Shown piece by piece: positions 3,731-19,939 of a stretch of DNA of 20,007 nt. Under the pieces are notes generated by a model that saw nothing but the letters and a program-made list of their open reading frames with translations, searched no databases and was not told where the DNA came from. Origin of the DNA: a virus. The position numbers and the translations under genes are program-made. The stretch's first letter is position 1. Each line of letters starts with the position of its first letter. Where the stretch lies: positions 1 to 20,007 of IMG/VR virus record IMGVR_UViG_3300024324_000106. The stretch is one strand, 5' to 3'.

Positions 3731-4633
3731 AATTGTCTCCGGTGATTTACTGGCTGTTGCCAGTGTTGATAAAACTGGTTGCTGTATTTCCGCTTCCAGT
3801 AGGTTAAGCGCTTCATCATGCGAGGCAATCTGGTCTATTAAACCAACGTCCATAGCATCCTTAGCAGTGTAAATTTGGGCTTGTGTATCGATAACATCTT
3901 GCTCACTCATGCTAGTGCGACCACTTGCAACATGACGAACAAAGATATCGTAATTTTGATCGACAATATTTTGATAAGTGCCTTGTGCCTGTTTACTTAA
4001 AGGCGCATGACTGCTGCCATCAATTTTGTGATGGCCTGCATAGATTGGCGTGTATTTTTTACCGGCTTTTGCATGTGCTTTGCTTTGGTCCAGGTGCATC
4101 ATGATGACGCCTATTGAACCGACCATAGCGGTTTCTGGTGCAATGATTCTGCTAGCACTGGCACCTATTGCGTAAGCAGCACTGAACATGCTTTCATTAC
4201 TAAGAGCCCAAACAGTTTTTACAGAATCTATACGTTTTATTTCTGCAGCCAGGTCAAACAATCCAGAGACAGATCCACCCGGCGAATCGACATCGAGCAA
4301 GATTGCTTTAACGTCTTGATCTTTTTCAGCTTTGCGTAATTGACTGGCCAACCGGCTATAGCTGGTCATACCCGACAGCGCATCCAGAAAACCAGCACGA
4401 TGTGTTAGTGAGCCCATGACAGAGATAACAGCAATTCCACTCGTGGTCATCTGGTACGGCTTACGCTCTGTATTGCTTGGAAATGCAGCAGCATCAACTT
4501 CTGGTGGCTTACCCATTGAGTAACCCTGAATAACATTATGCAGAATTTCTGCTTTACCAGGTGCTATCATCAAAGGCGTGTCGTAAAGCAAGCCTTGGAT
4601 AAGTTGATACTTAAATTGTTCAACTTCAGGCAT
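3350..4633 (-). CDS. C: Prohead protease with fused scaffold domain (S49 family, lambda gpC)
   Basis: A 427-residue protein (lambda gpC is 439). The S49 peptidase part covers roughly residues 60-285. Ser151 (in MFSAAYAIGASAS) is the probable nucleophile and Lys203 (in GHHKIDG) the general base, 52 residues apart as in lambda gpC. The conserved VGSIGVIMMH lies between them, and LLDVDSPGGSVSG (112-124) precedes them. The C-terminal ~126 residues are a helical, charged scaffold. I chose ATG 4633, which has GAGGA upstream and overlaps the portal end by 8 bp; the open frame reaches 4765 but only inside the portal gene. The protein matures the prohead by degrading scaffold and clipping portal protein. 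Confidence 0.92.
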   Translation of the reverse strand: MPEVEQFKYQLIQGLLYDTPLMIAPGKAEILHNVIQGYSMGKPPEVDAAAFPSNTERKPYQMTTSGIAVISVMGSLTHRAGFLDALSGMTSYSRLASQLRKAEKDQDVKAILLDVDSPGGSVSGLFDLAAEIKRIDSVKTVWALSNESMFSAAYAIGASASRIIAPETAMVGSIGVIMMHLDQSKAHAKAGKKYTPIYAGHHKIDGSSHAPLSKQAQGTYQNIVDQNYDIFVRHVASGRTSMSEQDVIDTQAQIYTAKDAMDVGLIDQIASHDEALNLLEAEIQQPVLSTLATASKSPETIMSEKETGITSVISQADLDSAVANAKAEGHETGLQAGREAEQTRINSILKLDSAKGKIDATLSAAIENGLEAEAADKFLVAVPAKATNGFTAAMDALGNPEIGVDTGEGSELTDDQLAAKVVSLVQS

Positions 4634-6224
4634 TAGCCGATTCCTCTTTTTTGGTTTTTTCTTCATCATCTGATTTATCTTGATCTGTTTCCCGAGAAAC
4701 ATCCGGCGCATACTCAACTTCATGCACACTCGGCAAACCAAGTTCTTGCGCATAATCGTTTTCAAACTTGCGCTGTTCTAAAGTTTCGCGCCAGTCCAGA
4801 CCCTGTTCCGCGCATTCGTTTTCCAGAGTAGACACACCAATATCCATTCTGATTTTCGCCGCATTGGCTTCCTTAACTGGGTCAACCCAACCACGTCCGG
4901 ACATGATCCAGCGGCAGCGTAAATAGGCATATTTATTGTCGTAATAATCTGGTGCTTCGACTCTGCCCAGGTTAATGGCTTCTTCTAGCCATAATTCATA
5001 AACAACGTTCAACCAGTAATCAGATATCCAGCGACGACGGCCCCAGAAATAACGCCAGGCTTCGAGCAATGCCATGCGTCCTGATGAATAATTGACGTTT
5101 GAAAAGTCCTTCATCAACAGTTCGTATGGAATATTTAAACCAACTGCCATATTGCGATGTAGACTCTGCATGAATGAGTCATAAGCAGAGTTATTGCGCC
5201 CGGCATTAAGCAGGTGCATTTTTGTGCCTGGTGGTATTTTTAATACGGCACCACCGGATAGCCGGGGTTTGTATCCACCTAAAAATTCGTTGTATTTTTT
5301 CTCGGCATTTTCACCGAAAATACTGTTCATAGTTTCCTGATCGAGATCAGATTCCAGCACGGCAGCAATCAGTGAATTTGCAATAGCGGTTTGCAGTTCG
5401 GTAACGGTGTACTTACCAGCCATTTTAAATTCACGCATAACCGATGAAATTAATGGCTTTCCACGACTTGCTCCGGCACGTTTTTTATCATGCAGGTGAA
5501 TAACACGACGACGACCCCAATCGGTGAAAGCGGGAATGCGCTGGTACTCATCGGCCCCGGCATACACAAATCCGTATTTTTCACCCGGATGGTTTTTCAT
5601 GATCCAGTATTCGATAGGCCGACCGTGCTGGTCATGCTGTACGCCACCACTCAGGTTCTTTTTCTGTTCCATGCCTGAAGGTGTGTCGAGTCTGTCAGAC
5701 TCCATGACCTGTAATCGAGTTGCCCATCGCGTAGCTGGCAGGGGCTTCCAGAGCGGTAACGCCAGTCCATCACCATTGGTAAAAGCACCGGAAAACATTT
5801 GCTGAGTTAAACCCAGTAGATTGAGTTCGCCACCGGCATCACATTCTGTGGTTTCTGCCCAGCTTCTAAATTGTGCTTCTGTGTTGTCTGCCCATTCCTG
5901 CGCCCAGTCGATAGTTTTACCCAACAATTTATAATCTGGTTTCGCACTTAGGCGCAGGCTGGAACCAATAATATTATCTTTGTGGGTTTGTTCTGCGCCA
6001 GAAGCTATGCCGTTATTGCGGTCAAGGTCACGAGAGCGACCCACCATCGTGACAAGCTCTTCAATCAAATCTATATCTGGTGATGCTGGCAGGGGATTCC
6101 AGTCACCGATTGCACGGTCACTGAGTGACGCCGCATCATGAGCACTGGCCGCCAATGTTGGCAGTTGCTCTATGCCAGCCAGGTCAGGTGATTGATTATC
6201 GAGTGCCAGTTGTGAATCCATCAT
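4626..6224 (-). CDS. B: Portal protein, lambda gpB family
   Basis: A 532-residue protein, practically the length of lambda gpB (533). It has the lambda-family portal pattern: an N-terminal MVGRSRDLDRNNGIASGA segment, WAETTECDAGG, QVMESDRLDTP with GGVQHDQHGRPIEYWI, IHLHDKKRAGASRGKPLI, and LLMKDFSNVNYSSGRMALLEAWRYFWGRR. The last of these is strongly conserved in lambda-type portals. A dodecamer of this protein forms the vertex through which DNA is packaged. Two tandem ATGs (6224 and 6221) follow a GGGG site. The start abuts the gpW TAA with no gap, and the end overlaps the protease start by 8 bp. Confidence 0.95.
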   Translation of the reverse strand: MMDSQLALDNQSPDLAGIEQLPTLAASAHDAASLSDRAIGDWNPLPASPDIDLIEELVTMVGRSRDLDRNNGIASGAEQTHKDNIIGSSLRLSAKPDYKLLGKTIDWAQEWADNTEAQFRSWAETTECDAGGELNLLGLTQQMFSGAFTNGDGLALPLWKPLPATRWATRLQVMESDRLDTPSGMEQKKNLSGGVQHDQHGRPIEYWIMKNHPGEKYGFVYAGADEYQRIPAFTDWGRRRVIHLHDKKRAGASRGKPLISSVMREFKMAGKYTVTELQTAIANSLIAAVLESDLDQETMNSIFGENAEKKYNEFLGGYKPRLSGGAVLKIPPGTKMHLLNAGRNNSAYDSFMQSLHRNMAVGLNIPYELLMKDFSNVNYSSGRMALLEAWRYFWGRRRWISDYWLNVVYELWLEEAINLGRVEAPDYYDNKYAYLRCRWIMSGRGWVDPVKEANAAKIRMDIGVSTLENECAEQGLDWRETLEQRKFENDYAQELGLPSVHEVEYAPDVSRETDQDKSDDEEKTKKEESANA

Positions 6225-6470
6225 TTACCCCAGGTACACCGGGCCAGACGGTAAACCAGAAGCTTTTGCCGCTTCTGATGCCAGCTTGTTTTCGTATTCT
6301 TTGCGGCGGGTTGTTATCCAGGCTTCATCGGCCTGGGTGAGGCTGCGTCCATTAACTGAGATTTGCTGTCCGGCACCCACGGCGACCTCGACACGTATCC
6401 AGTAGGTGTAGTGTTCTAGGGTGGTTCTGTTTTCGGGATTGGGTAATCCGTTGTCGATGTCTATTGCCAT
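6225..6470 (-). CDS. W: Head-tail connector protein, gpW-like
   Basis: An 81-residue protein immediately before the portal gene, the gpW position (lambda gpW is 68 residues). The segment VGAGQQISVNGRSLTQADEAWITTRRKEYENKL mirrors the gpW fold: a short beta hairpin carrying a Gly-Arg, then an Asp/Glu/Arg-rich helix. The C-terminus SGLPSGPVYLG resembles the GPAGFYV-type ends of gpW. gpW binds below the portal and stabilises packaged DNA. The ATG at 6470 has no good ribosome-binding site but follows a hairpin repeat and a possible promoter, so the message may be nearly leaderless. In lambda the gene follows terminase directly; here about 7 kb intervenes. Confidence 0.72.
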   Translation of the reverse strand: MAIDIDNGLPNPENRTTLEHYTYWIRVEVAVGAGQQISVNGRSLTQADEAWITTRRKEYENKLASEAAKASGLPSGPVYLG

Positions 6471-6492
6471 GCGACGGACTATGCCAGAATGT

Positions 6493-6524
6493 TTGTCCGG
6501 TTTTTAGGGAGAAAACCGGACAGG
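6493..6524. repeat. 32-bp hairpin direct repeat, left copy
   Basis: The 32 bases contain an inverted repeat with 11-bp arms (TGTCCGGTTTT and AAAACCGGACA) around a 7-base loop TAGGGAG. A second copy at 13397-13428 in the same orientation differs only in the loop (G at 6509 versus C at 13413), and similarity stops at both edges. This copy lies 22 bp upstream of the gpW start. It has no following T-run on either strand, so it is not a typical intrinsic terminator. It may be a protein-binding dyad or a recombination boundary. Confidence 0.9.
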
Positions 6525-6532
6525 TGTATAAT
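6504..6532 (+). promoter_or_regulatory. Probable promoter of the plus-strand moron gene
   Basis: A perfect TATAAT at 6527-6532 lies just outside the left hairpin repeat, in AT-rich sequence, 12 bp before the ATG at 6545. The -35 at 17-bp spacing (TTAGGG, 6504-6509) is poor and lies inside the hairpin. The predicted start of transcription near 6539 leaves a very short leader. A separate promoter is typical of moron genes carried by prophages. Confidence 0.5.
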
Positions 6533-6544
6533 CGTTAATTTTTG

Positions 6545-6985
6545 ATGACCAAAACCATGAAATGTGAGCCTACCTGGATAGATATAACCTCCGCTATATC
6601 ACTCCCAATAATTGCTGCTATTGGATTATTAATCGCATATGTTCAATGGAAAACCAATCAAAATCGACTAAAGAATGAGTTATTTGATAGAAGATATGAA
6701 GTATTTATAAATATAAAAACATTTCTTTCAGACCTCTCTAGAGAAGGAAATTTAAGTAGTGAAACTCAAGATAACTTCCGCAGATCAATTATTGGAATCA
6801 GATTTATTTTCGATAAAAAAACTTATAATTACGTCTGGAATGACCTTTGGTGCAAAGCCGTAGAAATGGATTTAGCTCATACACAAAAAAAACACACCAA
6901 AAGAGCGGAGCTAATGAAAGAACTAATGACTGAATTTTCAAACATAGAAGATAAATTTGAACCTTATATGCAGCTAAAATATTAA
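6545..6985 (+). CDS. Single-pass membrane protein of unknown function (moron)
   Basis: A 146-residue protein and the only plus-strand gene between the cI region and the left edge. The frame extends one codon up to a TTG at 6542; the ATG at 6545 is the better start. Residues about 12-34 (IDITSAISLPIIAAIGLLIAYVQW) form one membrane segment. The remainder is a charged, mostly helical cytoplasmic domain beginning QWKTNQNRLKNELFDRRYEVF. Similar small proteins with one membrane helix followed by an LFDRRYEVF-like motif occur in accessory regions of bacterial genomes, but I know no assigned function. It is clearly more AT-rich than its neighbours and converges with the minus operon, overlapping it by 4 bp. 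Superinfection exclusion or another lysogenic trait is possible but unproven. Confidence 0.75.
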   Translation: MTKTMKCEPTWIDITSAISLPIIAAIGLLIAYVQWKTNQNRLKNELFDRRYEVFINIKTFLSDLSREGNLSSETQDNFRRSIIGIRFIFDKKTYNYVWNDLWCKAVEMDLAHTQKKHTKRAELMKELMTEFSNIEDKFEPYMQLKY

Positions 6986-7320
6986 CTAATATGACCTTGC
7001 TCTGCCTCACCTTCTAGCACCCAGGGTAATTCGCTATCACCATCAGATACTTTTATTTCCATCTTTATTTCACCCACTTTGACAGACCCCAAACTAGACT
7101 TAGGAATATCTACCACAATTTTTGATGCACTCCAATCACCTTCACCATCTGTATGGTCAACCGTGACAGGGTCAACCAATAATGACGAACGATCACTGGA
7201 TATTATCGCTGCCTGCACAGTGGCTGTAATCGGTATATCGAATGTACTGGACACATCATTAACTATTTTTTTAAGAGTTATTACAAAATGGGCATCATAC
7301 CCAGTGGTTAGGGTGAACAT
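6982..7320 (-). CDS. Hypothetical beta-rich phage protein
   Basis: A 112-residue acidic protein without Cys, membrane segment or signal. Alternating hydrophobic strands (DAHFVITLKKIV, IPITATVQAAIIS, SASKIVVDIPKSSL, VGEIKMEIKVSDGD) suggest a single beta-sandwich domain. It is the last gene of the minus-strand operon that holds the 1376-residue protein. Its ATG overlaps the preceding gene by 13 bp and its TAA overlaps the end of the convergent plus-strand gene by 4 bp. A small virion accessory, chaperone or baseplate-like component related to the large protein is the simplest reading, but nothing diagnostic is present. Confidence 0.7.
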   Translation of the reverse strand: MFTLTTGYDAHFVITLKKIVNDVSSTFDIPITATVQAAIISSDRSSLLVDPVTVDHTDGEGDWSASKIVVDIPKSSLGSVKVGEIKMEIKVSDGDSELPWVLEGEAEQGHIS

Positions 7321-7580
7321 TGCAGGGTTGCCTCATATTGTGTTTGAGTGATTTCAGCAGTTAGAACAGTTTTCACTTGTGCCGTCAATGGCTTTATTTC
7401 TATTTCTGCCCGTTGTTCTGGCTGACGGATATCGACCATGAGCACCGCATTATTATTCATGACTTCAGCCACGATGCCTGGGCAGTTACCACCTAGCTGG
7501 TTATTTAAATGGTCCCAAAAAGTAGTGCCTGCCTGCACCGGCAAAGAGCTATTGCCCGTAATTATTTGCCAGAGTGTCAT
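7308..7580 (-). CDS. Hypothetical small phage protein
   Basis: A 90-residue protein (MTLWQIITGNSSLPVQAGT). It starts with an ATGA overlap at the end of the 1376-residue gene, so it is coupled to it. It has an N-terminal helical turn region with TTFWDHLNN, then strands (GIVAEVMNNNAVLMVDI) and a QAEIEIKPLTAQVKTVLTAEI-like stretch. No membrane segment is seen and the family is not recognised. Tight coupling to the large protein on one side and to the 112-residue protein on the other suggests the three work together, for example as a host-recognition structure. Confidence 0.7.
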   Translation of the reverse strand: MTLWQIITGNSSLPVQAGTTFWDHLNNQLGGNCPGIVAEVMNNNAVLMVDIRQPEQRAEIEIKPLTAQVKTVLTAEITQTQYEATLQCSP

Positions 7581-10500
7581 GGGAAAGACTCTGCGCCGAG
7601 AATGGCGGTTTTAGTGCCGGTGATAATGTCAGTTTTATCCTGGTCAGATACCGCACTTTGATTATCTTTAATTTGTTCCAGTGAATCGGTTAACGTATCA
7701 AACCCACCTCCTTTAATCTCTACCAGGTGCGCCACTACATTGTCGATGCTAATTTGACTCGCTGCTGATTTAGCTTCAATATTAGCCAAAGAAGTTTTTT
7801 CACCAGCTGTTAAAGCTGACCCTCCTATATTAGCGACGTAGATATCTCCTACATTCATAGATATCCCAAACCCCCCTGTAGGGGGATTTCTTCTAGGATC
7901 GCTACCGTCTTTACACGTTAGTAAAGCATTAGAAGTTTCTAGTAAATTTTGAGTACCTACGTTATCTAACTTTACAGTAGCAATATCTGTATTAAACTCA
8001 TAGTGTCCTGCATTAATAGCCTGCATAACATTAAAGAAAAGACGTATGCCCTCTTCTGTCATTAAATTATGCACATACCAGGCATACCCATTGAGAATAT
8101 TAAAAGTAGCTCCGGCAATTTGAATATCTATATTCAATCCATCTGCATCATCTACATAATCAGCAGAGTATCCAGTGACCGTAGATCCAGCTATACCGTT
8201 ATTTTCATATACACTATCTGTTTCTTGACTAGCTACTGCAGACCACCCAGTAGTAGAAACTAAAGCTGTTAAAGTTTGTATCTTCTTGGCATTTAATCCT
8301 GATTGGTAAGCTATTGTAATAGTGAGAACATCTCCATCTGAGTAAGTAGTACCATCAGTATAGGATACTGAGTACCCTGCAGCGGCTACAACAGTATTTA
8401 TTGTTTCATCATTATCTACCCCTACATTTCTAACAATTCGTACTCTGCTGCCCGAAATTAGACTAGTAATGCTGCCATTTGCTGTAACCGGTTCAACATA
8501 ATAACTCTCATCATTAGATTGAAATCTCACGAAGTCTGGATGATCAGAACCACCTCTGCTTACATAACAACCGTGCAAAGTCGTTGTAGTGTCTTGCCCG
8601 TCAACATAACCGACTGATGTTGCGTAGTCTGCGCCCTCTTCTATAACAAAATCAGGCCAGTTAAAAGGGTTTTTACTGTGATAAGTCGCATCCTGAGAAA
8701 GGTTATAATTCCACTCTCTTAGAATGTCTTCTGCTGTATTTGTACCACCGTCCTGAATCTCATAATCAAACGACTTACCACCAACTACTTTAGGGCTTGC
8801 TGTATGGTCTACGACTGTTAAAGTTATAGCAGGATCACCCGTTGCCGCTGTCATGGCTTCAGGCTCCATGCCTACTGTATATTCGTACGATTCTAATTCG
8901 GTTAATCCCAGACCATTGAGCACATTTGCTCTTGATTCATAATAACCGTTGATATGGTATTCAATAACTAAATGCGTTGAATAGTCATAATCTGGTGTAC
9001 CATCTCCATTAGCGTCTTCATAGAATTTAAATATTTGATCTACTGCGCCTGTAGCTCTTAAATCTGTTGTAGTTGATCCGTCTACTTGTTGATATTCGCC
9101 TTGCCCGCCTGCTGGTATCGTTCCTGCTGATTTGATTGAACACCATTTACCTATTACTTGATCACTAGTATTTTCCCACTGCATTCCTGCTCCTTTCCAA
9201 TGATCTAAATCATCAATTGTGCAACCATCTAGAAAGTCTATTCTATCAGGGCCAATAGCTTTTAGATTAAACTGAGTATTAGCCAATGTTGATTGGGCTA
9301 TAAACTCAGCTATCAATGCAGAATAAATGCTTCTTCCCTCTTCCCTGGTAACAAGTGTTAAAACCTTTGTTGTTCTATTGTATGTAATATTTGTTGTATA
9401 AGCTAAACCGTGACTAGAGTCGTAAATTGGATCTAATGTTTGTGATACTGAAATAGGAATAACTGAATTTCCAGCTGTTACACCTGCTACACGAATAGGC
9501 AAATACCCCGCTTTCATTATCGTGTAATCAACGTCTTGATCAGCAGAATAAACCTCGCTCCACGATTCGCTTGTAGCTGTTGAGTTATTTCGTTGTATTT
9601 CTGTTTGTGTGCCAGTCTCAAAAATTACGACTTGTGAACCAGCGACTAAACCTGTAAATGATAAGCCTGTGTTAACTGTTGGTGTTACGATTGTCAGTGT
9701 TCCTGCTCCGGGTACGCCGTTAGTACCATCATGCACACTCAGGCTAGTAGCTGATTGAATCTCAAAATCTGTTGTACCTGTATATTCAATATCATAAGTG
9801 TTGCCAGACACTGTAAGATTTGGATCAGTCCATGTTCCAGACTGATCGCCCGTTATTTTTATTGCTACTGAATTACCGCTAAACGTACAGTTGTGTAGCT
9901 TTTCAAAATCAGTCTCAGTTGTAACTGTAATTGCTTGAGCATCAACACAGTTTGAGATAACAACACCGCTAGTCATATCAGTGCTATTATGAGTAATCTC
10001 TTTACACGCGGAAAATGTCAGCCCGCTAAGAATATTATCTAATGGATGAAGAACAACTGTGCCATTTAGAACCAGAACACCATTTGTAGAGATATCCCCA
10101 CTAGTTAGTTCAAATACGTGGTAATCACCCATGTTATAGGTATTGGCATCTATAATGGCTGAATTACCTGTACCAAAATCAAACTCTATACCGAGAGTAG
10201 CTGGGTTAATTTGTGATTGTACTTTTAGTTCGGATATATTTGCAGCAATGGGAAATTCAATAGACTGTCCTGTACTATCCCATACCACTGCATCTGTGCC
10301 GCCATTCCCTATCCTTATCTTTTGCATACAGTAAAACTGCCCTACAGATTGGGTATTCTGCGATTCTATTGTGTATAGTAAGTTTTGCTGAGCTAGGGTG
10401 TAGGCATCTAAAAAGCTCAGCTCGCCTCCAATATACCCCCCTAAAACAGTAAGCGTTCTTAGGAGATAAAGAGGGCTCATGTTAATGCCAGAATAGGAGC

Positions 10501-11707
10501 TATTAGGTCTAACACCTACACCTATAACTGTTACAGCACTTCTATCAAAAGTGCCATATTCTTGTAACTCATATCCGGTAGATACATTGCTTGAGTCTGG
10601 CATCTGGATCAAGTGGCTGAAATAACTTTTCACAGTGTTAGGCATAACCTCTGTACCATTAGCTGCCCAAAGCATAGAACCATTACCATCTGATACTATG
10701 AGAGAACATACTCCTTTGTTGTAAGGAAGTTTGTTACCGGCATCAATTATAAAACGAAAAAGTATTATTTCATCAGTAAGATCAAGAGAGTCTATTGTAA
10801 ACGCTCCAATCAAAGGAATTTCGTTATAAGTAGATAGGCTTTGTTGTTGTAAACGAGTACCTGTAAAACCATATTCTTGTTCATTTCTAACGTTAGAGTT
10901 AACCAATTGACCGTCAGCTTCTACTGAATGTGTAGCATTTCCGTCTATATCAGGGATAAGATTACTACCAGTTGCATCAGCAGTAATATTTACGCTTCTA
11001 TCAGTTCCGTCTATACCCGCAAAACTTGCAGTATTAAAAGAGTTTAAAAGAATTGCAGCGGGATTATTTATATCTTTATACGCAGCTATCTTGCTTGTAC
11101 CGTCATCTTTAATAGCAACTGTTATTGCTCCGGGATTAGGTTGAGCAGCTGAGTAATAGAGGAAGTCTCCTGTTGCTCCGGCAGTTATCTGATATCGCGC
11201 AGAAAAAGAACTTCCATGATGGTAGTTGTTATTATTAGCATAACCTAAAGCAGAACTACTCACTTCAGGCAAAGGTATAGTATTACCTCCACAGTCTCCA
11301 AGACAGGACAGAACTAGACAATTATCTGTAGTAGTTGTAACGCCAGGAGCATCAATAGGAGCGTTATTGCCAGCATTACCTCTTAGAGAATAACTGTCAA
11401 TAAAGTTTGTAGCAGGAGCCCCCTTAATAATAGCTATATAATAAGCAACGTAAGTATTGTTAAGCGAATTAATAGTAGTTTCAGTTATTGGCGTAGCGCC
11501 TGCCACATGAGAGTAACAGTATAGTTCTGGCCCTTGCGTTTCAACTATCTCCTGAGTAAAGTCAGTTATAGCTCCATCGATAAACCCTGAATCAATAGAC
11601 ACAAACATTATAACTAGATCACCAGTATCATGCACAGGTATAGCTACAGGATGTATGTACTGTTGTGATGTATTGCAAAAAGAAGTTGTTTTAGTGATAT
11701 AAGGCAT
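7577..11707 (-). CDS. Giant beta-rich virion protein, probable tail fibre / adhesin-like
   Basis: A 1376-residue protein, the largest in the window, rich in Thr, Ser, Asn, Gly and Val with no membrane helix. Residues about 20-210 (DTGDLVIMFVSIDSG ... YCYSHVAGATPITETTI ... AYYIAIIKGAP) follow a pattern I recognise from phage structural proteins in which a GDLLV-like strand and a Tyr-containing VAG element recur. The middle carries beta-helix-like runs (about 560-700: LVLNGTVVLHPLDNILSGLTF, VVISNCVDAQAITV) as in fibre or pectate-lyase-like domains. The C-terminal 100 residues (VGDIYVANIGGSALTAGEKTSLANIEAK) turn helical. A host-binding fibre or virion-surface protein is inferred. Its place between terminase and gpW is unusual. 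The ATG at 11707 overlaps the previous TAA. Confidence 0.72.
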   Translation of the reverse strand: MPYITKTTSFCNTSQQYIHPVAIPVHDTGDLVIMFVSIDSGFIDGAITDFTQEIVETQGPELYCYSHVAGATPITETTINSLNNTYVAYYIAIIKGAPATNFIDSYSLRGNAGNNAPIDAPGVTTTTDNCLVLSCLGDCGGNTIPLPEVSSSALGYANNNNYHHGSSFSARYQITAGATGDFLYYSAAQPNPGAITVAIKDDGTSKIAAYKDINNPAAILLNSFNTASFAGIDGTDRSVNITADATGSNLIPDIDGNATHSVEADGQLVNSNVRNEQEYGFTGTRLQQQSLSTYNEIPLIGAFTIDSLDLTDEIILFRFIIDAGNKLPYNKGVCSLIVSDGNGSMLWAANGTEVMPNTVKSYFSHLIQMPDSSNVSTGYELQEYGTFDRSAVTVIGVGVRPNSSYSGINMSPLYLLRTLTVLGGYIGGELSFLDAYTLAQQNLLYTIESQNTQSVGQFYCMQKIRIGNGGTDAVVWDSTGQSIEFPIAANISELKVQSQINPATLGIEFDFGTGNSAIIDANTYNMGDYHVFELTSGDISTNGVLVLNGTVVLHPLDNILSGLTFSACKEITHNSTDMTSGVVISNCVDAQAITVTTETDFEKLHNCTFSGNSVAIKITGDQSGTWTDPNLTVSGNTYDIEYTGTTDFEIQSATSLSVHDGTNGVPGAGTLTIVTPTVNTGLSFTGLVAGSQVVIFETGTQTEIQRNNSTATSESWSEVYSADQDVDYTIMKAGYLPIRVAGVTAGNSVIPISVSQTLDPIYDSSHGLAYTTNITYNRTTKVLTLVTREEGRSIYSALIAEFIAQSTLANTQFNLKAIGPDRIDFLDGCTIDDLDHWKGAGMQWENTSDQVIGKWCSIKSAGTIPAGGQGEYQQVDGSTTTDLRATGAVDQIFKFYEDANGDGTPDYDYSTHLVIEYHINGYYESRANVLNGLGLTELESYEYTVGMEPEAMTAATGDPAITLTVVDHTASPKVVGGKSFDYEIQDGGTNTAEDILREWNYNLSQDATYHSKNPFNWPDFVIEEGADYATSVGYVDGQDTTTTLHGCYVSRGGSDHPDFVRFQSNDESYYVEPVTANGSITSLISGSRVRIVRNVGVDNDETINTVVAAAGYSVSYTDGTTYSDGDVLTITIAYQSGLNAKKIQTLTALVSTTGWSAVASQETDSVYENNGIAGSTVTGYSADYVDDADGLNIDIQIAGATFNILNGYAWYVHNLMTEEGIRLFFNVMQAINAGHYEFNTDIATVKLDNVGTQNLLETSNALLTCKDGSDPRRNPPTGGFGISMNVGDIYVANIGGSALTAGEKTSLANIEAKSAASQISIDNVVAHLVEIKGGGFDTLTDSLEQIKDNQSAVSDQDKTDIITGTKTAILGAESFP

Positions 11708-12087
11708 TACAGCAAACTAACCCCAGCAGCTAAAAAGAAAACGCCTATGAACATCATGTGTTCTTTTACTGAGTTAAATCCGTCTATGTACTGTGTGAAT
11801 CTAGTTGCTGCGTAGGTATAAGCAATTGAAACAGGTAGTGTCATGGCCCATTTATTTTCCACGAACCACACATGCCAATGATCTGGAGGCGTTGCAAGAT
11901 ATATTGCTACACCCCACCAGCCAACACAGACAGCGACAGCAAAGGACATTACACCCATTGTCACCACGATCTTTTCAGCAAATGAGCTTAATTCACCATG
12001 GAAATACCAGACCCAACACCGCCAGGTTAAGTACAAAGCTGTAATCGTTATTGCGTTGTTACCAATTTCTGTAATCCAGTTACCCAT
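11707..12087 (-). CDS. Multi-pass membrane protein, possible holin-like
   Basis: A 126-residue, very hydrophobic protein with about four membrane segments (roughly residues 12-30, 40-65, 80-97 and 109-126) and the C-terminus ending in the last helix (FIGVFFLAAGVSLL). Many Trp residues lie in the first half (YLTWRCWVWYF, GWWGVAIYL). Small multi-pass proteins like this near other membrane peptides in phage late operons are often holins or holin regulators, but no family motif proves it and no endolysin is seen nearby. It overlaps the upstream 57-residue ORF by 8 bp and the downstream giant gene by 3 bp. Confidence 0.65.
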   Translation of the reverse strand: MGNWITEIGNNAITITALYLTWRCWVWYFHGELSSFAEKIVVTMGVMSFAVAVCVGWWGVAIYLATPPDHWHVWFVENKWAMTLPVSIAYTYAATRFTQYIDGFNSVKEHMMFIGVFFLAAGVSLL

Positions 12088-12253
12088 GATGCACTTGCTC
12101 TTTTTGTTTTAACTCATCAAGAAATTCATTTAGTTTATTACGGTTTTCACGCATTAATTTTTTAGACTCTATTCGCTGCGTTTCACTTTCATTAAACTCT
12201 CTGTCTTCAATATGCTTTTCAGCCTGAGACTTCTTTTTAAAGATCGAAAACAT
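12080..12253 (-). CDS. Small highly charged protein (57 aa)
   Basis: A short frame (MFSIFKKKSQAEKHIEDREF ... QKEQVHHG), almost wholly Lys/Glu/Asn/Gln and predicted to be one long helix or coiled coil. ATG 12253 lies 2 bp after the TAG of the preceding gene, with AAAGAG upstream, and the end overlaps the next ATG by 8 bp. Tight packing on both sides supports a real gene. The function is unknown. Confidence 0.62.
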   Translation of the reverse strand: MFSIFKKKSQAEKHIEDREFNESETQRIESKKLMRENRNKLNEFLDELKQKEQVHHG

Positions 12254-12255
12254 AA

Positions 12256-12480
12256 CTAGCTCTTTAACGCCTCGAGTGTTTTTTCAAATATTTGAGCGGA
12301 TTCAAACATTTCTTTTTGAGAGTCACGAGATACATCAAAAGCTTTATTCTGCCAGTGCATACACTCTGTTTCTTTTTTATCAATCACCCGAGCCATTAAC
12401 CTGTTTTGCCAGATTAAATACGCGATAAATAAACCAGCAGTACCGAGCTGTTCAAGATTGATGGCGTTTAAAAACTCCAC
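12256..12480 (-). CDS. Small membrane protein with coiled-coil tail (BhlA/UviB-like, possible holin)
   Basis: A 74-residue protein starting at GTG 12480, which overlaps the previous TAG (TAGTG) and has AAGGA about 9 bp upstream. One N-terminal membrane segment (LGTAGLFIAYLIWQNRLMARVI) is followed by a charged helical tail (DKKETECMHWQNKAFDVSRD). This is the architecture of BhlA/UviB-type holins and of many unassigned phage membrane peptides. Neighbouring membrane proteins support a lysis-type role; no sequence motif proves it. Confidence 0.6.
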   Translation of the reverse strand: MEFLNAINLEQLGTAGLFIAYLIWQNRLMARVIDKKETECMHWQNKAFDVSRDSQKEMFESAQIFEKTLEALKS

Positions 12481-12836
12481 TAACAATGGTCCTTATCATG
12501 TTGGTTTAACTTTTGACATATCCAGACAGCGAACATAAAGCGCCACTTAATTATTCTGGATGAATGACTGTAAACCTTGAGTTTCTTATATCGCTTCATC
12601 CTTCCTGTAACCAGTTCAGTAAAGCTTCCCGGAGCATCTAAAAACAAAGGTATTAATAAAATATTTACCCACCAGTCGAAGACAACAAAAGGCAAAGCAA
12701 GGAATATCTTCCCAGGCAATTCCCATTTAGTGCCGACTACCCTGTGTTTAACTTTCATCACGAAAACAAACGCGATAAACAAATAGATCATTGCAGTAAT
12801 GACCAGGCTAAAATATTGATCGATTAGAGCTATCAT
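12480..12836 (-). CDS. Small phage membrane protein, paralogue B (ends DHC)
   Basis: A 118-residue protein with two membrane segments (near residues 6-27 and 45-67), then a basic cytoplasmic tail. It shares LFLDxPxxFxELVTGRMxRYKKL and the terminal LCQ/N-LN-DxxHC pattern with the gene at 12983-13351, so the two are paralogues. Phage proteins with the same ending (Cys, then Leu-rich, Asp and a final His-Cys) occur in late regions of several Proteobacteria phages, usually unnamed. The ATG at 12836 overlaps the TGA of the small frame at 12833-12979. The function is unknown. Confidence 0.7.
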   Translation of the reverse strand: MIALIDQYFSLVITAMIYLFIAFVFVMKVKHRVVGTKWELPGKIFLALPFVVFDWWVNILLIPLFLDAPGSFTELVTGRMKRYKKLKVYSHSSRIIKWRFMFAVWICQKLNQHDKDHC

Positions 12837-12979
12837 TTTCTTTTAAACAGTGTGGTTAGAATGGATTCAGGCCGAGGCTTATCATCTATCGTTTCATGAC
12901 GTGATTTTGTTTCTGTTCGTAAATCACCGAAGTAGGCCCGGACTACATAAGCGAATAAGTGTTTCTGTTTCAGGTAATT
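12833..12979 (-). pseudogene. 48-codon reading frame with displaced start
   Basis: Between the two paralogous membrane genes a frame of 48 sense codons runs to a TGA overlapping the next ATG (ATGA), typical of a translated partner. It encodes KHLFAYVVRAYFGD followed by a charged tail ending LTTLFKRK. No in-frame ATG, GTG or TTG exists. An ATG at 12983-12981, overlapping the preceding TAA, would lead straight into it if one A of the following AAA were absent. Either a one-base insertion has broken the gene, the sequence has an error, or a non-standard start (CTG at 12973) is used. Confidence 0.4.
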
Positions 12980-12982
12980 TCA

Positions 12983-13351
12983 TTAACAATGCCCTGCATC
13001 ATAACGGTTGAGGTGATTGCATAAACAGATCGCAAAAGATAAACGCCATTTTTTAAGTCTAGATAAATTCCATGGTCGATTCGATTGTAATTTTTTGTAG
13101 CGGGTCATTCTGCCGGTTACCAGCTCAAAGGGATGTGCTGGCAGGTCTAAAAATAGAGGTACAAATACCCAGTTCATCAAACAATCTGCTATTAAAAATG
13201 GAACACCAAATAGGACTTTTATGACGGGGTAGTATTTTGTATTTTCAAACTCTGTTTTTAACTCCACCAAAACAACAAAGAATATAAACAGAGCAATTAA
13301 TGACAGAAGGGTAAAGTGAATGTATTGCTCTAAAGCAGCGTGGATCGACAT
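12983..13351 (-). CDS. Small phage membrane protein, paralogue A (ends GHC)
   Basis: First gene of the cassette operon. It has two membrane segments (about residues 14-32 and 45-65 of 122) and a basic tail ending RYDAGHC. I chose ATG 13351, which has GAG about 7 bp upstream; a TTG at 13363 is possible. The core VPLFLDLPAHPFELVTGRMT matches LIPLFLDAPGSFTELVTGRM of the paralogue 150 bp downstream. This indicates an old tandem duplication, since the rest has diverged. It lies 46 bp downstream of the right hairpin repeat. The function is unknown. Confidence 0.72.
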   Translation of the reverse strand: MSIHAALEQYIHFTLLSLIALFIFFVVLVELKTEFENTKYYPVIKVLFGVPFLIADCLMNWVFVPLFLDLPAHPFELVTGRMTRYKKLQSNRPWNLSRLKKWRLSFAICLCNHLNRYDAGHC

Positions 13352-13381
13352 CAATATTCTCAACAGTGAACTTGATGTGAA

Positions 13382-13410
13382 TTTATAACTGATTTATTGT
13401 CCGGTTTTTA
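13382..13410 (-). promoter_or_regulatory. Possible activator-dependent late promoter overlapping right repeat
   Basis: On the minus strand TATAAA (13387-13382) lies 9 bp beyond the hairpin repeat, with no acceptable -35 at 17 bp (TAAAAA inside the hairpin). The hairpin dyad centre (13412) would fall near -37, as for an activator site. At the left copy the equivalent hexamer, at the same spacing, is CATAGT (6483-6478). This is inference from spacing only. Confidence 0.33.
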
Positions 13411-13428
13411 GGCAGAAAACCGGACAGG
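13397..13428. repeat. 32-bp hairpin direct repeat, right copy
   Basis: Same orientation and sequence as 6493-6524 except one loop base (TAGGCAG here, TAGGGAG there). Arms are TGTCCGGTTTT and AAAACCGGACA. It occupies the gap between the Mor-like gene (ending 13440) and the first membrane-protein gene (starting 13351). The two copies bracket 6872 bp that are absent from this position in lambda-type genomes. Confidence 0.9.
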
Positions 13429-13439
13429 ATCACTATTTA

Positions 13440-13736
13440 CTAAACTCCATATTGCTGACAGATAGTAAATACCTGGCTTTTAGACATACCTTCTTTATTT
13501 GCAATTTCTCGGCATGTCTTTCCTGCCAGTTTTAATTTGCAAATTCTTTCATTGCGAATATCTTTTCTTTCAACAGGAACATAAACTCGTTCTGACCCAC
13601 ATCGACGCTTAACCCCGTCATCAACAACCAGGGCAAAATCGTGCAACCGGTTACGACTGAGATCTATTCCGAGTTTTTTGGCGGCCTGGAACATTTCTTC
13701 ATAGATGATGTCGCCTAAATTTTCAGAGCCAGCCAT
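13440..13736 (-). CDS. Mor/C-family transcription activator-like protein
   Basis: A 98-residue protein. The N-terminal helical half (LGDIIYEEMFQAAKKLGID) resembles the dimerisation domain of Mor-family activators. The C-terminal half, from VYVPVERKDIRNERICKLKL through AGKTCREIANKEGMSKSQVFTICQQY, is a helix-turn-helix of the Mor type: a YVP strand, then helix, turn, recognition helix. Mu Mor and C are late-promoter activators that bind dyad-symmetric sites. ATG 13736 overlaps the terminase end by 14 bp, with GGGGGT upstream. It lies beside one hairpin repeat. It may therefore control late genes, in place of a Q antiterminator, which I do not see; that role is inferred. Confidence 0.72.
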   Translation of the reverse strand: MAGSENLGDIIYEEMFQAAKKLGIDLSRNRLHDFALVVDDGVKRRCGSERVYVPVERKDIRNERICKLKLAGKTCREIANKEGMSKSQVFTICQQYGV

Positions 13737-14250
13737 CGTTACCCCCTACTGAGTCATACATATCTACATTTCCATACGGATCATTATCCGCTGTTTGATT
13801 GTTATTGGTTTCTTGAGAAACGGCTGGAGCGCTGAACAGATCCACTTGTTGCAATTGATGCTCGATATCATCCCATTGCGCTGGTGTTTTTAAGTGCAGC
13901 TTTTTAGCCCGTGCCGCATGAAGGGCATAGCGTTCTGTGTCTGGAGCTTCGAGTCGTCTGCCAGAGTATTTCTGCCAAACTAGTTTTTTTCTGTTAGTAG
14001 GTGATGGTGCTTTTACTTCACTGTTTAGCTGCTTAAAATAGTCATTCCTAACTGTCTTATAAGCGTGCATCCGCCCTGCCCCATTACCCTCCAGCTGTAG
14101 CCTTTTATACAGCAGATCCTTTGATTTAAGGGTTCCAATTATATAAACCTTCAACCCATATTTTGATGCTTTTGTCGGCGATTTATGATCTATTGATCTT
14201 TCGCTGGGCGTTGAAAATATTTCTTTATCAGTTTGATCAGTTGATCCTTT
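13723..14250 (-). pseudogene. A: C-terminal part of large terminase downstream of an in-frame TGA
   Basis: These 175 codons continue the terminase frame after the TGA at 14253-14251 without any shift. They begin KGSTDQTDKEIF, matching the KGAS segment of lambda gpA, and include YGLKVYIIGTLKSKDLLYKR (lambda GVYLTEIGTDTAKEQIYNR). The GRRLEAPDTERYALHAARA segment corresponds to RRNEALDCFVYALAALRI. This is the end of the nuclease domain. No ATG with a ribosome-binding site begins the segment; the first possible start is a TTG at 14154. Without readthrough of TGA it would probably not be made. The coding quality after the stop is intact, so the lesion looks recent or is a sequence error. Confidence 0.82.
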
Positions 14251-15708
14251 TCATGCCATGATAAGCACATGAGAATATTTTTTCTTCATGGCCCTTACCC
14301 AGGTATAAACCATGTCGTTTGTACCACCGTCTGATGAGTCGATGGTTAGCGCCTGAGCAAATATGTCAAACCCTTTAACATGCTTGAATGGCTGGAAGCA
14401 CAGCTGCTCTAATTCCGTCCATACAGGGTCTTTTATGTCATGGACTACGCCGTATATTTCACCCCAATACACCAGCCAGCTTTCTTCATTTTTGCCCCAT
14501 GCCCTGATACAGACAGCAAAGCGATCATCTTGCACATCGATACCTATGGTAATATTTAATCCACCAATCTGCACTTGCATTTCTGGGTAATCTAACGCCC
14601 TTTGCTCAAGCGTTTCAGCTTCTGCATTATTGCTTTCGTATTTATAGGCCAGTGCCAGGCAATTGTTAACAAATGATATCCAGAAGGTATCTATTCCCTG
14701 AGCCAGCTTGTGCTTTGCTTCCAGGTATCTTTCCACCAGTCGTTCCATTCTTGAGCTATTGCCATTTAGATAAATTTCACCTACACCGGCATGACCCCTG
14801 ATGCCTCTGAATTCAGCCGTTGCTTTCCACCCATAATTTTCTGTAAAAACAGCAGACTGAACATTCTTCCATTTTTGTTCGTCATCCCATATTGACCCAC
14901 AATGAGGACATACATAGACCGCTGTTTCTGGTTTGCTTCTTCCGTATATTTCATGCACCGTTTCATTGTCTTTATCCCACACTACATTATAAAAATCGAG
15001 GGGGTGAGACTCTCCACAATCATGGCACGGAATATAAAATTTACTTTTATCAGATTCTTCGTAAGCGGTTTGAATGGCAGATAAACCATCTATTGTGGCC
15101 GTGCCTCCATAGATAACTTTTCTGTCTTCAACCTGTTTTGTTCGCTCTTCAAAGTTTTTAATCGCATCACCCTGCCCTTTAACATTGGCGTTTGCATCAT
15201 CTGGCTCTTCAATGATTGCGACTGTTAACGTCGAGTTTTTACCAGATGCTGGTGAGTTTGATGTGACTAACTTTAAAAACCCACCAGGAAAGTTACGAAA
15301 ATTCTTTTTATTACCTGCTTTTCGACTAACACTAACATCAATCTTTCCTTTTAATTTCGGTGTAGCCTTGACTGCTGGTGCCAATTTTTCCTCAATAAAA
15401 CCGTCAAATTCCCCCGCCTTAGAAAACATAATTCCTATAGAACATGGGTCAACATCAATCCTTTTCATGACATACCCAATAACTGGGCCACTAGTCCACG
15501 CCTGCTGGCTACATTTCATATTGATTACTTTCCAGACCTCTGGATCGTCGATTGATGCACAAATACCAATTGCCCATGGAATATTCATCATATCGAATTT
15601 TCCAGCATGATCTGGCGATTCCAGCTTTGTCAGCATTCTATATTTTTCGTTCCATTCTCTGGTGCTAATATCTTCAGGAGGCGACCATTTTTTCAAAGCC
15701 TTCCTCAT
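14251..15708 (-). CDS. A: Terminase large subunit, lambda gpA family (truncated by in-frame TGA)
   Basis: The packaging motor ATPase and cos nuclease. From ATG 15708 the frame gives 485 residues before TGA 14253-14251, whereas lambda gpA has 641. With the continuation to 13723 the product would be about 660. Visible parts are the Walker-A-like loop in VINMKCSQQAWTSG (near residues 62-73), Walker B in LTVAIIEEPDD (160-170), zinc-type cysteine pairs (IPCHDCGES and VCPHCG), and the nuclease start GIDVQDDRFAV with DSSDGGTND. ATG 15708 has GAGG upstream and overlaps the small terminase by 35 bp. Other ATGs lie upstream (15720, 15801). The truncated product lacks the nuclease end and should not support packaging. 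Confidence 0.9.
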   Translation of the reverse strand: MRKALKKWSPPEDISTREWNEKYRMLTKLESPDHAGKFDMMNIPWAIGICASIDDPEVWKVINMKCSQQAWTSGPVIGYVMKRIDVDPCSIGIMFSKAGEFDGFIEEKLAPAVKATPKLKGKIDVSVSRKAGNKKNFRNFPGGFLKLVTSNSPASGKNSTLTVAIIEEPDDANANVKGQGDAIKNFEERTKQVEDRKVIYGGTATIDGLSAIQTAYEESDKSKFYIPCHDCGESHPLDFYNVVWDKDNETVHEIYGRSKPETAVYVCPHCGSIWDDEQKWKNVQSAVFTENYGWKATAEFRGIRGHAGVGEIYLNGNSSRMERLVERYLEAKHKLAQGIDTFWISFVNNCLALAYKYESNNAEAETLEQRALDYPEMQVQIGGLNITIGIDVQDDRFAVCIRAWGKNEESWLVYWGEIYGVVHDIKDPVWTELEQLCFQPFKHVKGFDIFAQALTIDSSDGGTNDMVYTWVRAMKKKYSHVLIMA

Positions 15709-16171
15709 CCTCGTCCTCATCGTCTGACGAGTATTCAGCCAGGCGGGCGAGGACGGGGTTTGTAAGACCCTGAAGCTCCTTGAGTTCACAATCGAGTTCA
15801 TAGTTTCTCTTTAAATGTTTTTTTAATTTTCTGGCCAATCGCATCAGTTCAGATCGAGCTGAAAGAATGACACTTTCAAGAGCCCACTCGGCATCATCAG
15901 CCATCACATACATCCCTGATTTTTCCGCCAGCTCTAACTCTTTTAAATCTCCATTTAATCTATCCAGCCTATCCTTTGCCGACTCTCTCTGATAACCGGA
16001 AGACACAAACTGAACTCGCCACTCAATCACATCCTGAGTGTCATATTCATTTGACTTACCTCGACCAGCATCAACCTTAATTGGCATTCCTTTGTCCTGC
16101 CAATCGGTCAAAGTTCGCTCACTAACCCCGATGATTTCAGACAATTCCTTTTTGTTAACCACTCGACCCAT
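15674..16171 (-). CDS. Nu1: Terminase small subunit, lambda Nu1 family
   Basis: A 165-residue protein (lambda gpNu1 is 181) that binds cos and recruits the large subunit. Its N-terminus (RVVNKKELSEIIGVSERTLT then DWQDKGMPI) aligns with lambda VNKKQLADIFGASIRTIQNWQEQGMPV, a winged helix-turn-helix. The middle is a long helix (RLDRLNGDLKELELAEKSG) and the C-terminus is very acidic (SSDDEDEDEEGFEKM). ATG 16171 is the start nearest the conserved domain, although no convincing ribosome-binding site is visible. Upstream TTG (16231) and ATG (16210) starts are possible but lie outside the conserved part. Confidence 0.9.
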   Translation of the reverse strand: MGRVVNKKELSEIIGVSERTLTDWQDKGMPIKVDAGRGKSNEYDTQDVIEWRVQFVSSGYQRESAKDRLDRLNGDLKELELAEKSGMYVMADDAEWALESVILSARSELMRLARKLKKHLKRNYELDCELKELQGLTNPVLARLAEYSSDDEDEDEEGFEKMVAS

Positions 16172-17675: not shown

Positions 17676-18363
17676 GGTTTTTGCCCTGGTTAATTATTTC
17701 GTCATTCCACCGCTTTTGGTTTAGATAAGTCGATGGATTTGGAATGTATTGTTTTTGTGTGCCCTGGTATTGAGTGGGTAATTTTTCTAGTGCTGATTGT
17801 TGGTCTGTTGCTGATAGCTTATTCCAGCATTTTTCAGCAGGTTCTTTACCTACCTTTTTTGGAAAGATTGACCAGAATTGATCAAAGGGTATTTCACCTG
17901 TTTTGACCATATTACTTTGTTTTTGAATAGTTGTTTTTGTAGTGTCTTTTGATGACCCACATTTTTTGTGGGTGGTGGCACCCACATTTTTTGTGGGCGG
18001 TGTACTACATTTTTTGTGGGTGGTGGCATTTAATGCAGGTGCATTATTTGTGGGTGGTTGATGATCATTTTTGAACAATTCCCCCATCGAATATTCATTC
18101 ATTTTACCGTTTATTCTACGCACACTTATCAGCCCGATAACCTCCAGTTCTGATAATAATTTCTGCACCGTTCTGTCGTCTTTTATGCCTAAAAACTGCT
18201 TAAATTGGGTGAAAGGAATAGAATCTTTTACTTTATGCCAGCCCCGTGTTTTACGAATGATAAATATCAGACAGGCAAATGCTTTTGCCGAAACCTTACC
18301 CGCTATTTCATCGACAATTCTGTTCGGCACCTGGAATGAATTGGGTACAAACTCAGCCATCAT
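17596..18363 (-). CDS. O-like replication initiator with internal origin
   Basis: A 255-residue protein. The N-terminal ~95 residues (NRIVDEIAGKVSAKAFACLI ... RKTRGWHKVKDSI ... FLGIKDDRTVQKLLSEL) are a winged helix as in phage O-type initiators. A Thr/Lys/Asn-rich linker (about 100-150) is encoded by the iterons. The C-terminus (FDQFWSIFPKKVGKEPAEKC ... YIPNPSTYLNQKRW) is the common fW-yPkK module found in many phage and plasmid replication proteins. It presumably binds the iterons and hands the origin to the DnaC-like loader. Two tandem ATGs (18363, 18360) follow CAGGTAGGG. Confidence 0.85.
   Translation of the reverse strand: MMAEFVPNSFQVPNRIVDEIAGKVSAKAFACLIFIIRKTRGWHKVKDSIPFTQFKQFLGIKDDRTVQKLLSELEVIGLISVRRINGKMNEYSMGELFKNDHQPPTNNAPALNATTHKKCSTPPTKNVGATTHKKCGSSKDTTKTTIQKQSNMVKTGEIPFDQFWSIFPKKVGKEPAEKCWNKLSATDQQSALEKLPTQYQGTQKQYIPNPSTYLNQKRWNDEIINQGKNHESASKKPSGDFSKVQTDEGFLRDYA
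17891..18054. other. Probable phage replication origin (iterons plus AT-rich stretch)
   Basis: Four iteron copies lie inside the O-like gene at 17956, 17981, 18004 and 18038 (starts). Next to them (17891-17950) is a strongly T-rich strand, a likely DNA-unwinding element. Lambda has the same arrangement: dyad iterons and an AT-rich segment within gene O, in the linker between the two protein domains. Confidence 0.72.
17956..18054. repeat. Iterons: dyad CCCACA-T5-TGTGGG
   Basis: Copies 1 (17956-17972) and 2 (17981-17997) are identical 17-mers, CCCACATTTTTTGTGGG, whose arms CCCACA and TGTGGG are perfect inverted repeats. Copy 3 (18004-18020) has two changes in the left arm. Copy 4 (18038-18054) keeps mainly the right arm. 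Start-to-start spacings are 25, 23 and 34 bp. They encode repeated THKKC and TKNVG stretches in the initiator. Confidence 0.85.
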
Positions 18364-19195: not shown

Positions 19196-19224
19196 AATAT
19201 AACCGTTTTGGTTATACTTTACAA
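19196..19224 (-). promoter_or_regulatory. cro (rightward-early type) promoter
   Basis: On the minus strand TTGTAA (19224-19219) and TATATT (19201-19196) are separated by exactly 17 bp. Operator 1 covers the -10 and spacer, operator 2 covers the -35. Confidence 0.68.
19198..19216. promoter_or_regulatory. Operator 1 of the cI/cro switch
   Basis: A perfect palindrome TATAACCGTTTTGGTTATA (7-bp arms, 5-base centre). It overlaps the cro -10. A close relative lies 22 bp away, centre to centre. Confidence 0.75.
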
Positions 19225-19246
19225 CCAAAACAGTTATATTTAATAT
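19218..19246 (+). promoter_or_regulatory. cI maintenance promoter
   Basis: TTTACA (19218-19223) and TAATAT (19241-19246) with 17-bp spacing on the plus strand, followed by an AGGTG site before ATG 19269. Its -35 overlaps the -35 of the cro promoter on the opposite strand. Confidence 0.65.
19220..19238. promoter_or_regulatory. Operator 2 of the cI/cro switch
   Basis: TACAACCAAAACAGTTATA; its complement, TATAACTGTTTTGGTTGTA, differs from operator 1 at two positions. It covers the -35 of both promoters, so binding here should affect both. Confidence 0.72.
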
Positions 19247-19268: not shown

Positions 19269-19939
19269 ATGTTTATGATAACTGACTCAGAATTCGTGGC
19301 CGAAATGGTCAGAAAAATAGCGATTAGATACAAATCTAAACGACAATTTGCGCTGGAAATAGGAGAAAAAACAGGGCAAAACTTAAATCACTGGATAAAA
19401 AGAGGGCGCGTCCCAGGTGATAAAAACCCCTGGTCGCAGAAAAACTATCAATCGACTGGCTGGATAACAATTCAAGAATTAACGAACAGTTAAATAATTT
19501 AGATCAATCCTCTTTTGCAGATAATTGTGATATTGTCAGCAACCCAAACAATAAAGTCCCTTTACTATCAATAGAATCGGCAAGCAATTTAGACAAACAC
19601 CATAAAAATAATAGTCCAAGGAAAGGTGAATTTATGATTTACTGCAGTACAGACCACTCATACAACGCATTTGCACTAAAAATATCAGGCGACTCGATGA
19701 CAACATCATCAGGAATGTCTTTCCCTGACGGCATGACCATCATCATTGACCCGGAACAGATACCAATCAGCGGAGATTTTGCGCTGGCTCTCGTAGAAGG
19801 GACAAACATCGCCACGTTTAAACAACTCGTTATAGACGGCGACAAACACTATCTAAAACCACTTAATCATCAATACCCTCTAATTACAGATAAATTCAAA
19901 ATAATTGGAAAAGCGATAGAAGCATTTATCGTGCTGTAA
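19269..19939 (+). pseudogene. cI: CI-type repressor with S24 peptidase domain, frameshifted
   Basis: Two overlapping frames together form one repressor. Frame one (ATG 19269 to TAA 19493) carries the DNA-binding part (EFVAEMVRKIAIRYKSKRQF ... LNHWIKRGRVPGDK). The matching continuation KPLVAEKLSIDWLDN is in the -1 frame, reached at the A5 run 19422-19426. From there it runs uninterrupted to 19939, including VPLLSIESASN, SGDSMTTSSG (Ser nucleophile) and ATFKQLV (Lys), the LexA/CI self-cleavage domain. Adding one A would restore a 223-residue protein of normal CI length. As given, the DNA-binding part is truncated at 74 residues. A second ATG at 19634 could start the peptidase domain alone but has no use without the first part. 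Confidence 0.85.

Follow-up and report, generated by a model that had tools for sequence, protein, structure and literature searches.

The locus described here raises the question of why a temperate phage should carry the same hairpin twice in its late region, in two copies separated by 6.9 kb of genes. The window, i.e. the whole stretch of 20,007 nucleotides that was analysed (positions 1 to 20,007 of IMG/VR record IMGVR_UViG_3300024324_000106), is a viral contig from a lambda-like temperate phage with its late genes on the minus strand, in the order small and large terminase, Mor-like gene, repeat copy 2, cargo, repeat copy 1, gpW, portal, protease, decorator and capsid. Sister contigs, 99.9% identical to it, extend the window both ways, adding tail genes and, beyond the repressor, lysis-like genes; placed in register with the window they give ~32.5 kb of phage sequence. 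The terminase large subunit is split into a main part (14251-15801, minus strand; PF05876/PF20454) and a C-terminal part (13723-14154) by an in-frame stop, which results from a single-base difference at 14253 private to the window contig; the gene is intact in the sister contigs. Similarly, the window contig lacks one base at 19421-19422 that its sisters have, and this deletion breaks its repressor reading frame in two. Four tandem 23-nt repeats (ACCCACATTTTTTGTGGGTGGTG) at 17955-18059, within the replication-protein gene, are likely lambda-type origin iterons.

The two repeats are as the initial annotation had described them. Copy 1 (6493-6524, minus strand) and copy 2 (13397-13428, minus strand) have the same orientation, agree at 31 of 32 positions, and each consists of perfect 11-bp arms around a 7-nt spacer. 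In copy 1 the palindrome covers 29 bp (6494-6522) with arms TGTCCGGTTTT/AAAACCGGACA and the minus-strand spacer CTCCCTA; copy 2 has the same palindrome with the minus-strand spacer CTGCCTA, the two spacers being one base apart (TAGGGAG vs TAGGCAG). Dinucleotide shuffles yielded no match against the two observed, and in the ~32.5 kb of phage sequence both repeats are the strongest perfect hairpins, second to the CI/Cro operator. The abrupt end of similarity was also borne out, with the resemblance falling off at the palindrome edges (D3: 84% over 45 nt). One sister contig, IMGVR_UViG_3300024258_000116, covers both copies and has them at the identical spacing of 6904 bp, whichever copy the remaining sister contigs reach is unchanged, and none of the few differences among these contigs falls inside either repeat. 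That 31 of 32 bases are kept between the copies despite diverged flanks fits selection on what may be a shared binding site. An Rfam search with the repeat gave no match, and a search of phages and plasmids with the 32-mer gave no credible match. The arm pattern was absent from 369 genomes of the class to which the Marinobacter relative belongs, so the repeat is not a common host element in that class, one of the possibilities raised at the outset.

The gene context given in the initial annotation, with the terminase and Mor-like gene on one side of the block and gpW and portal on the other, is right, and the positions of the copies relative to gene starts can be made more precise. Copy 1 lies between the divergent starts of the gpW-like head-tail adaptor gene, the first of the head operon (6225-6470, minus strand; PHROG 118, E = 2.5e-8), and a plus-strand gene at 6542-6985, which corrects an earlier description and means that this copy is behind no gene. 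The portal gene (4626-6224, minus strand; PHROG 21, E = 3.5e-121) is downstream of gpW. Copy 2 lies between the stop codon of the Mor-like gene, 12 nt away, and the start of the first cargo gene. Both copies are therefore upstream of minus-strand transcription units. Each is followed, 10 nt after the dyad, by a putative -10 hexamer on the minus strand: CATAGT at 6478-6483, 7 nt before the gpW ATG, and TATAAA at 13382-13387 before the first cargo gene. The gpW gene has no obvious Shine-Dalgarno sequence and is possibly leaderless. A TATAAT at 6527-6532 is found beside copy 1, near the plus-strand gene.

The cargo downstream of copy 2 is encoded on the minus strand and begins with four small membrane proteins recognized from their translations, tm1 (12983-13351, or up to 13363; no family match), tm2 (12480-12836), tm3 (12256-12486) and tm4 (11707-12087), of which the adjacent tm1 and tm2 are apparent paralogues. 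Next is a fibre-like, probable receptor-binding protein of 1376 aa without an informative family match (7577-11707), followed by two small proteins, s1 (7308-7580; 49% to the phage L208 and also found in L211) and s2 (6982-7320; 50% to L208, and also in L211 and L138). The plus-strand gene at 6542-6985, opposite to all of these, encodes a single-TM protein and is a moron candidate, with a weak PADLOC match (E = 0.002).

Is the 6.9-kb block extra? A terminase-based search returned ~150 relatives, 141 with both terminase and portal, and a portal-based search defined a nearer clade with portal identities of 46-66%. By automatic ORF calls, the ORF preceding the portal begins 22 nt or less from the terminase stop in 122 of the 141. 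The closest relative, L211 (portal 66%), has the fibre, s1 and s2 directly before gpW, as in the window, and after this fibre module comes a separate T-rich hairpin and then a dyad with arms unlike those of the window. The cargo is thus extra in comparison with most relatives, yet at least one further lineage has this fibre arrangement too. In the nearer clade the Mor-family gene is directly after the terminase, and in cargo-free loci it usually ends ~40-130 nt before gpW; the interval between the two often holds the promoter alone and reaches up to 5.4 kb where there is cargo. The Mor-gpW interval is a recurrent cargo site in these relatives. Its changing contents include defence-like matches to Lamassu (L220, 5595-9230), DSR2 (L236, 5943-9557), PDC-S42 (L229, 7810-8754), a DpnII-like enzyme (L230, 8571-9455), a NACHT/NYN pair (L221, 6692-9554) and a PIN-domain protein (L223, 8103-9740).

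In a comparison with ~75 relatives, most of them carry a promoter-like block just upstream of gpW, consisting of a dyad and a -10-like hexamer ~7 nt before the ATG. In the anchored alignment of 62 gpW-upstream regions (47 after dereplication), in which the row for L160 is set on a wrong start codon, the dyad block is at a fixed distance from the ATG, and the A2/T6 pattern of the -10-like hexamer, counted in the same alignment, peaks at -13/-12, i.e. 6-7 nt before the ATG. At the offset of the window CATAGT, relatives have CAATCT, CATAAA or CATTCT. The core CCTAAAA and its offset, and an ungapped CCTAAAAA core, are common to both window copies and to L211, L245, L237 and L239. The arms themselves vary by phage (GGAAAT/ATTTCC, GGACAT/ATGTCC, GCGACA/TGTCGC, TGTCCGG/CCGGACA), and they vary together: with the L160 start set right, complementarity was higher with a phage's own arm than across phages at centres -38 (z = 5.0) and -50.5 (z = 4.3), as compared to z values of about 0 to 1 at the control centres -57, -30 and -23. 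In the main group of relatives there are two overlapping dyads, and several relatives (L141, L235, L242, L243, L260 and L272) lack a dyad in register. By its position, copy 1 is the window's version of this conserved element, and both window sites have the late-promoter layout, in which a dyad extends over the -35 region, no -35 is present and the -10 hexamer is at a fixed distance. Two sets of candidate counterparts were rejected. In the Burkholderia group, the hairpins seen between terminase and portal turned out to be part of the terminase ORF, and the paired 11-7-11 palindromes of PS3-like relatives are in iteron-rich regions after a primase gene and are probably replication origins. Palindrome pairs with 9-12-bp arms ~205-225 bp apart were seen in L044 (6760-6994), L050 (5547-5793), L158 (2859-3114) and L142 (1888-2134); these relatives have a different replication module, and the pairs, which come with many half-sites and are located after a primase gene, are probably replication origins.

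These data also bear on whether the repeats act as RNA, as terminators or processing sites. The predicted hairpins are stable (-15 to -21 kcal/mol, z -3.7 to -5.9), as such a role would have it. However, no T-run follows either stem, neither copy is on the list of terminators, copy 1 has no gene in front of it to terminate, and L211 has a T-rich hairpin of its own ahead of the dyad. Moreover, the arms diverge between phages while the distance to the -10 and the ATG stays constant. The initial annotation's argument against simple terminators, which would combine a GC-rich stem with a T-run, holds, and we regard an RNA role as highly improbable.

If copy 1 is the gpW promoter element, copy 2 calls for an explanation of its own, and here other phages were informative. 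Each locus was scanned with its own element, using a 43-nt comparison for which the shuffle maximum was 27. Second copies were found in only 5 of ~74 loci: L224 (40/43), L237 (40/43), L245 (38/43), L239 (35/43) and the window itself (33/43). In the four relatives the second copy is 8.5-11 kb downstream, just after a fibre-like or lysis block and before further structural genes, and a -10-like site and then an ATG come after each. The cargo between the copies is at a different place in different phages, i.e. before gpW in the window, between portal and protease in L224, before the connector genes in L237 and L239, and after the capsid gene in L245, where near-identity of the copies continues through the -10 region. 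In L245 (18548-21000) the second copy is followed by a P22-like portal gene despite the lambda-like portal in the same contig, which could be a real chimera or a misassembly. Whole-contig searches gave two copies in L237, L239, L245 and L224, and, among the 12 phages of the Burkholderia-like group, a single strong copy in 11 and none at that sensitivity in the twelfth. With these four relatives the window does not stand alone, and its pairing is best taken as one case of a wider pattern, in which a further copy appears where a late operon restarts.

The candidate for the protein recognizing these sites is the product of the gene directly after the terminase (13440-13736, minus strand; PHROG 836, late activators, E = 2e-4). 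This Mor-like protein did not match the PF08765 model; it is 40% identical to its counterpart in L160, which does match (1.6e-4), and 32% to that of L216. Among its aligned homologues 30 of 31 match PF08765 (best 9.8e-17), and the profile built from the family alignment matches Mu Mor (1rr7, E = 3e-11) and Mu C (E = 2e-10). An alignment-based structure model (pLDDT 86), used because a single-sequence model was too weak, has Mor and C at Foldseek ranks 1-3, with probabilities of 0.97-0.98 but weak E values of at least 0.045 and TM ~0.4. The sequence comparisons thus assign the protein to the Mor/C family via its homologues and not via a PF08765 match of its own. Of 79 loci, 60 were found to have a Mor-family gene, among them all those with a visible terminase and portal identity of at least 50%. 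Loci with Mor could not be cleanly told from loci without it by their dyad scores, and co-evolution of Mor and operator was not specific, with a partial correlation of 0.18 vs 0.22 in the control region -22 to -1.

Taken together, the interpretation we favor, with a probability of roughly 0.7, is that the repeats are operators, specific to this phage, at late promoters of the Mor type, with each late operon having one. Copy 1 would start the head operon at gpW, and copy 2 would start the cargo operon with its small membrane proteins, fibre, s1 and s2, both on the minus strand. The Mor/C-family activator encoded after the terminase would bring RNA polymerase to promoters that have a -10 but lack a proper -35; we infer that it does so by binding the dyad, and that transcription begins at or near the gpW ATG. 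Each late operon would then need its own operator copy once cargo separates it from the existing promoter.

It can be asked whether late-promoter operators of this kind could be bound by some other regulator instead, such as CI/Cro, a host factor or a ribbon-helix-helix protein, in which case they might serve for repression or to block elongation. Repressor operators are typically perfect palindromes whose arms are specific to the phage, and CI/Cro as well as small DNA-binding candidates are encoded in the window. The sole other exact arm match in viral contigs, in the Mu-like phage L004, is also between repressor and transposase genes; as an element related to ours it was rejected, being a Mu-like phage operator whose resemblance is probably coincidence or convergence. 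Against such a regulator, the CI/Cro region has no copy of the repeat and has a different operator of its own, a large palindrome at 19196-19240 between the Cro-like and CI-like genes that is probably shared by them and is unrelated in sequence to the repeats, and across the clade the DNA-binding protein that accompanies the dyad is Mor. We consider another regulator rather unlikely, and Mor remains our choice for the predicted activator.

The initial annotation had read the repeats as marks of a module that entered, or can leave, by recombination, which in its strong form would make them tyrosine recombinase core sites of the 11-7-11 type. Direct repeats of recombinase-core size do flank a block missing in most relatives, and in four relatives too there are cargo blocks between the copies. 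However, copy 1 is a promoter element that occurs singly before gpW, with different arms, in most of the clade; the arms change from phage to phage, with the two arms of one phage changing together; and the second copies in the four relatives start other late operons. The spacers, which should be identical in core sites, differ by one base. No recombinase was recognized in the cassette or elsewhere in the window, which covers part of the genome, and no excised or one-copy form occurs among the sister contigs. In L211, a similar fibre module before gpW is accompanied by a dyad whose arms are different. The only recent exchange seen is inside the fibre gene, away from the repeats: its C-terminal 2.1 kb are 99.2-99.4% identical to two unlike phages (window 7484-9871; L207 2532-4643; L208 1-2124), one of which encodes a protein of 2312 aa beside the fibre region. 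This points to recent exchange of receptor-binding sequence across phage types, with parts moving by exchange within the gene and not at the repeats. Dedicated recombination sites thus seem very unlikely to us.

A milder role for recombination would refine the late-promoter interpretation rather than replace it. The operators might also act as joints for homologous recombination that shuffle cargo into late operons, and recombination at duplicated promoters is a possible route by which the copies arose. The cargo between copies at different operon places in the window, L224, L237, L239 and L245 speaks for such joints, as does the extent of near-identity in L245; against them, the window flanks are fully diverged, and among the phages compared no two were seen to carry the same cargo at different sites, or to flank a shared cargo with a single repeat in one and two repeats in the other. 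We hold this idea only tentatively. With similar reserve, one can envision the operator as a portable adaptor, where cargo such as fibres and lysis genes joins the late operon at varied places with, or flanked by, a copy of the Mor operator. The number of promoters would then follow the cargo, the repeated promoters would be the recombination joints, and the arms would drift quickly with the activator, keeping the regulon of each phage private.

The closest known parallel is phage Mu, where the dyad bound by Mor is centred at -43.5 and reaches into the -35 region of a promoter with no -35 hexamer (PMC4287176), and C binds dyads in four late promoters (PMC4287176; PMC4461284). As at the Mor/C promoters Pm, Plys, PI, PP and Pmom, there is here a predicted activator of the putative Mor/C fold, a dyad overlapping the -35 region, and a -10 without a -35, and one activator would serve several late promoters (PMC4287176, PMC4461284). 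Unlike in Mu, the head genes are lambda-like in a genome that is not that of Mu, the activator gene is directly after the terminase, and the dyad in the window is centred at -38 from the ATG, ~6 bp nearer; the arms also differ widely between relatives, the main group has two overlapping dyads, and gpW may be leaderless. T4-type phages reportedly have mobile regulatory cassettes (PeSLs) made of an early promoter and a stem-loop. These resemble the present case in that a short repeated regulatory element with a hairpin is beside exchanged genes, and differ in that here the hairpin is the putative operator itself, the promoters are late, and no instance of the element moving together with a gene was seen. 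The stoperators of cluster A mycobacteriophages, which are asymmetric, repressor-bound and many per genome (PMC9283540), likewise are repeated regulator-binding sites in intergenic regions, binding being a prediction in our case, whereas the window has two symmetric sites at operon starts. Finally, the hotspots of P2 and P4 prophages have changing antiviral systems at a fixed genome position (PMC9122126). Our relatives likewise have changing defence-like cargo at a fixed position; unlike in these hotspots, the site is between Mor and the gpW promoter of lambda-like phages, and the window cargo is mainly structural.

Considering our findings here, what looked like the scar of a mobile cassette would become a testable regulatory code, with a Mor-type activator and a phage-specific palindrome marking the start of each late operon. 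If that is true, the late operons and the cargo boundaries of a widespread lambda-like clade would be readable from sequence alone, and dozens of natural activator-operator pairs would be available from which to learn the specificity of the Mor family. The Mor-gpW interval would likewise be a predictable place to seek phage-borne defence genes.
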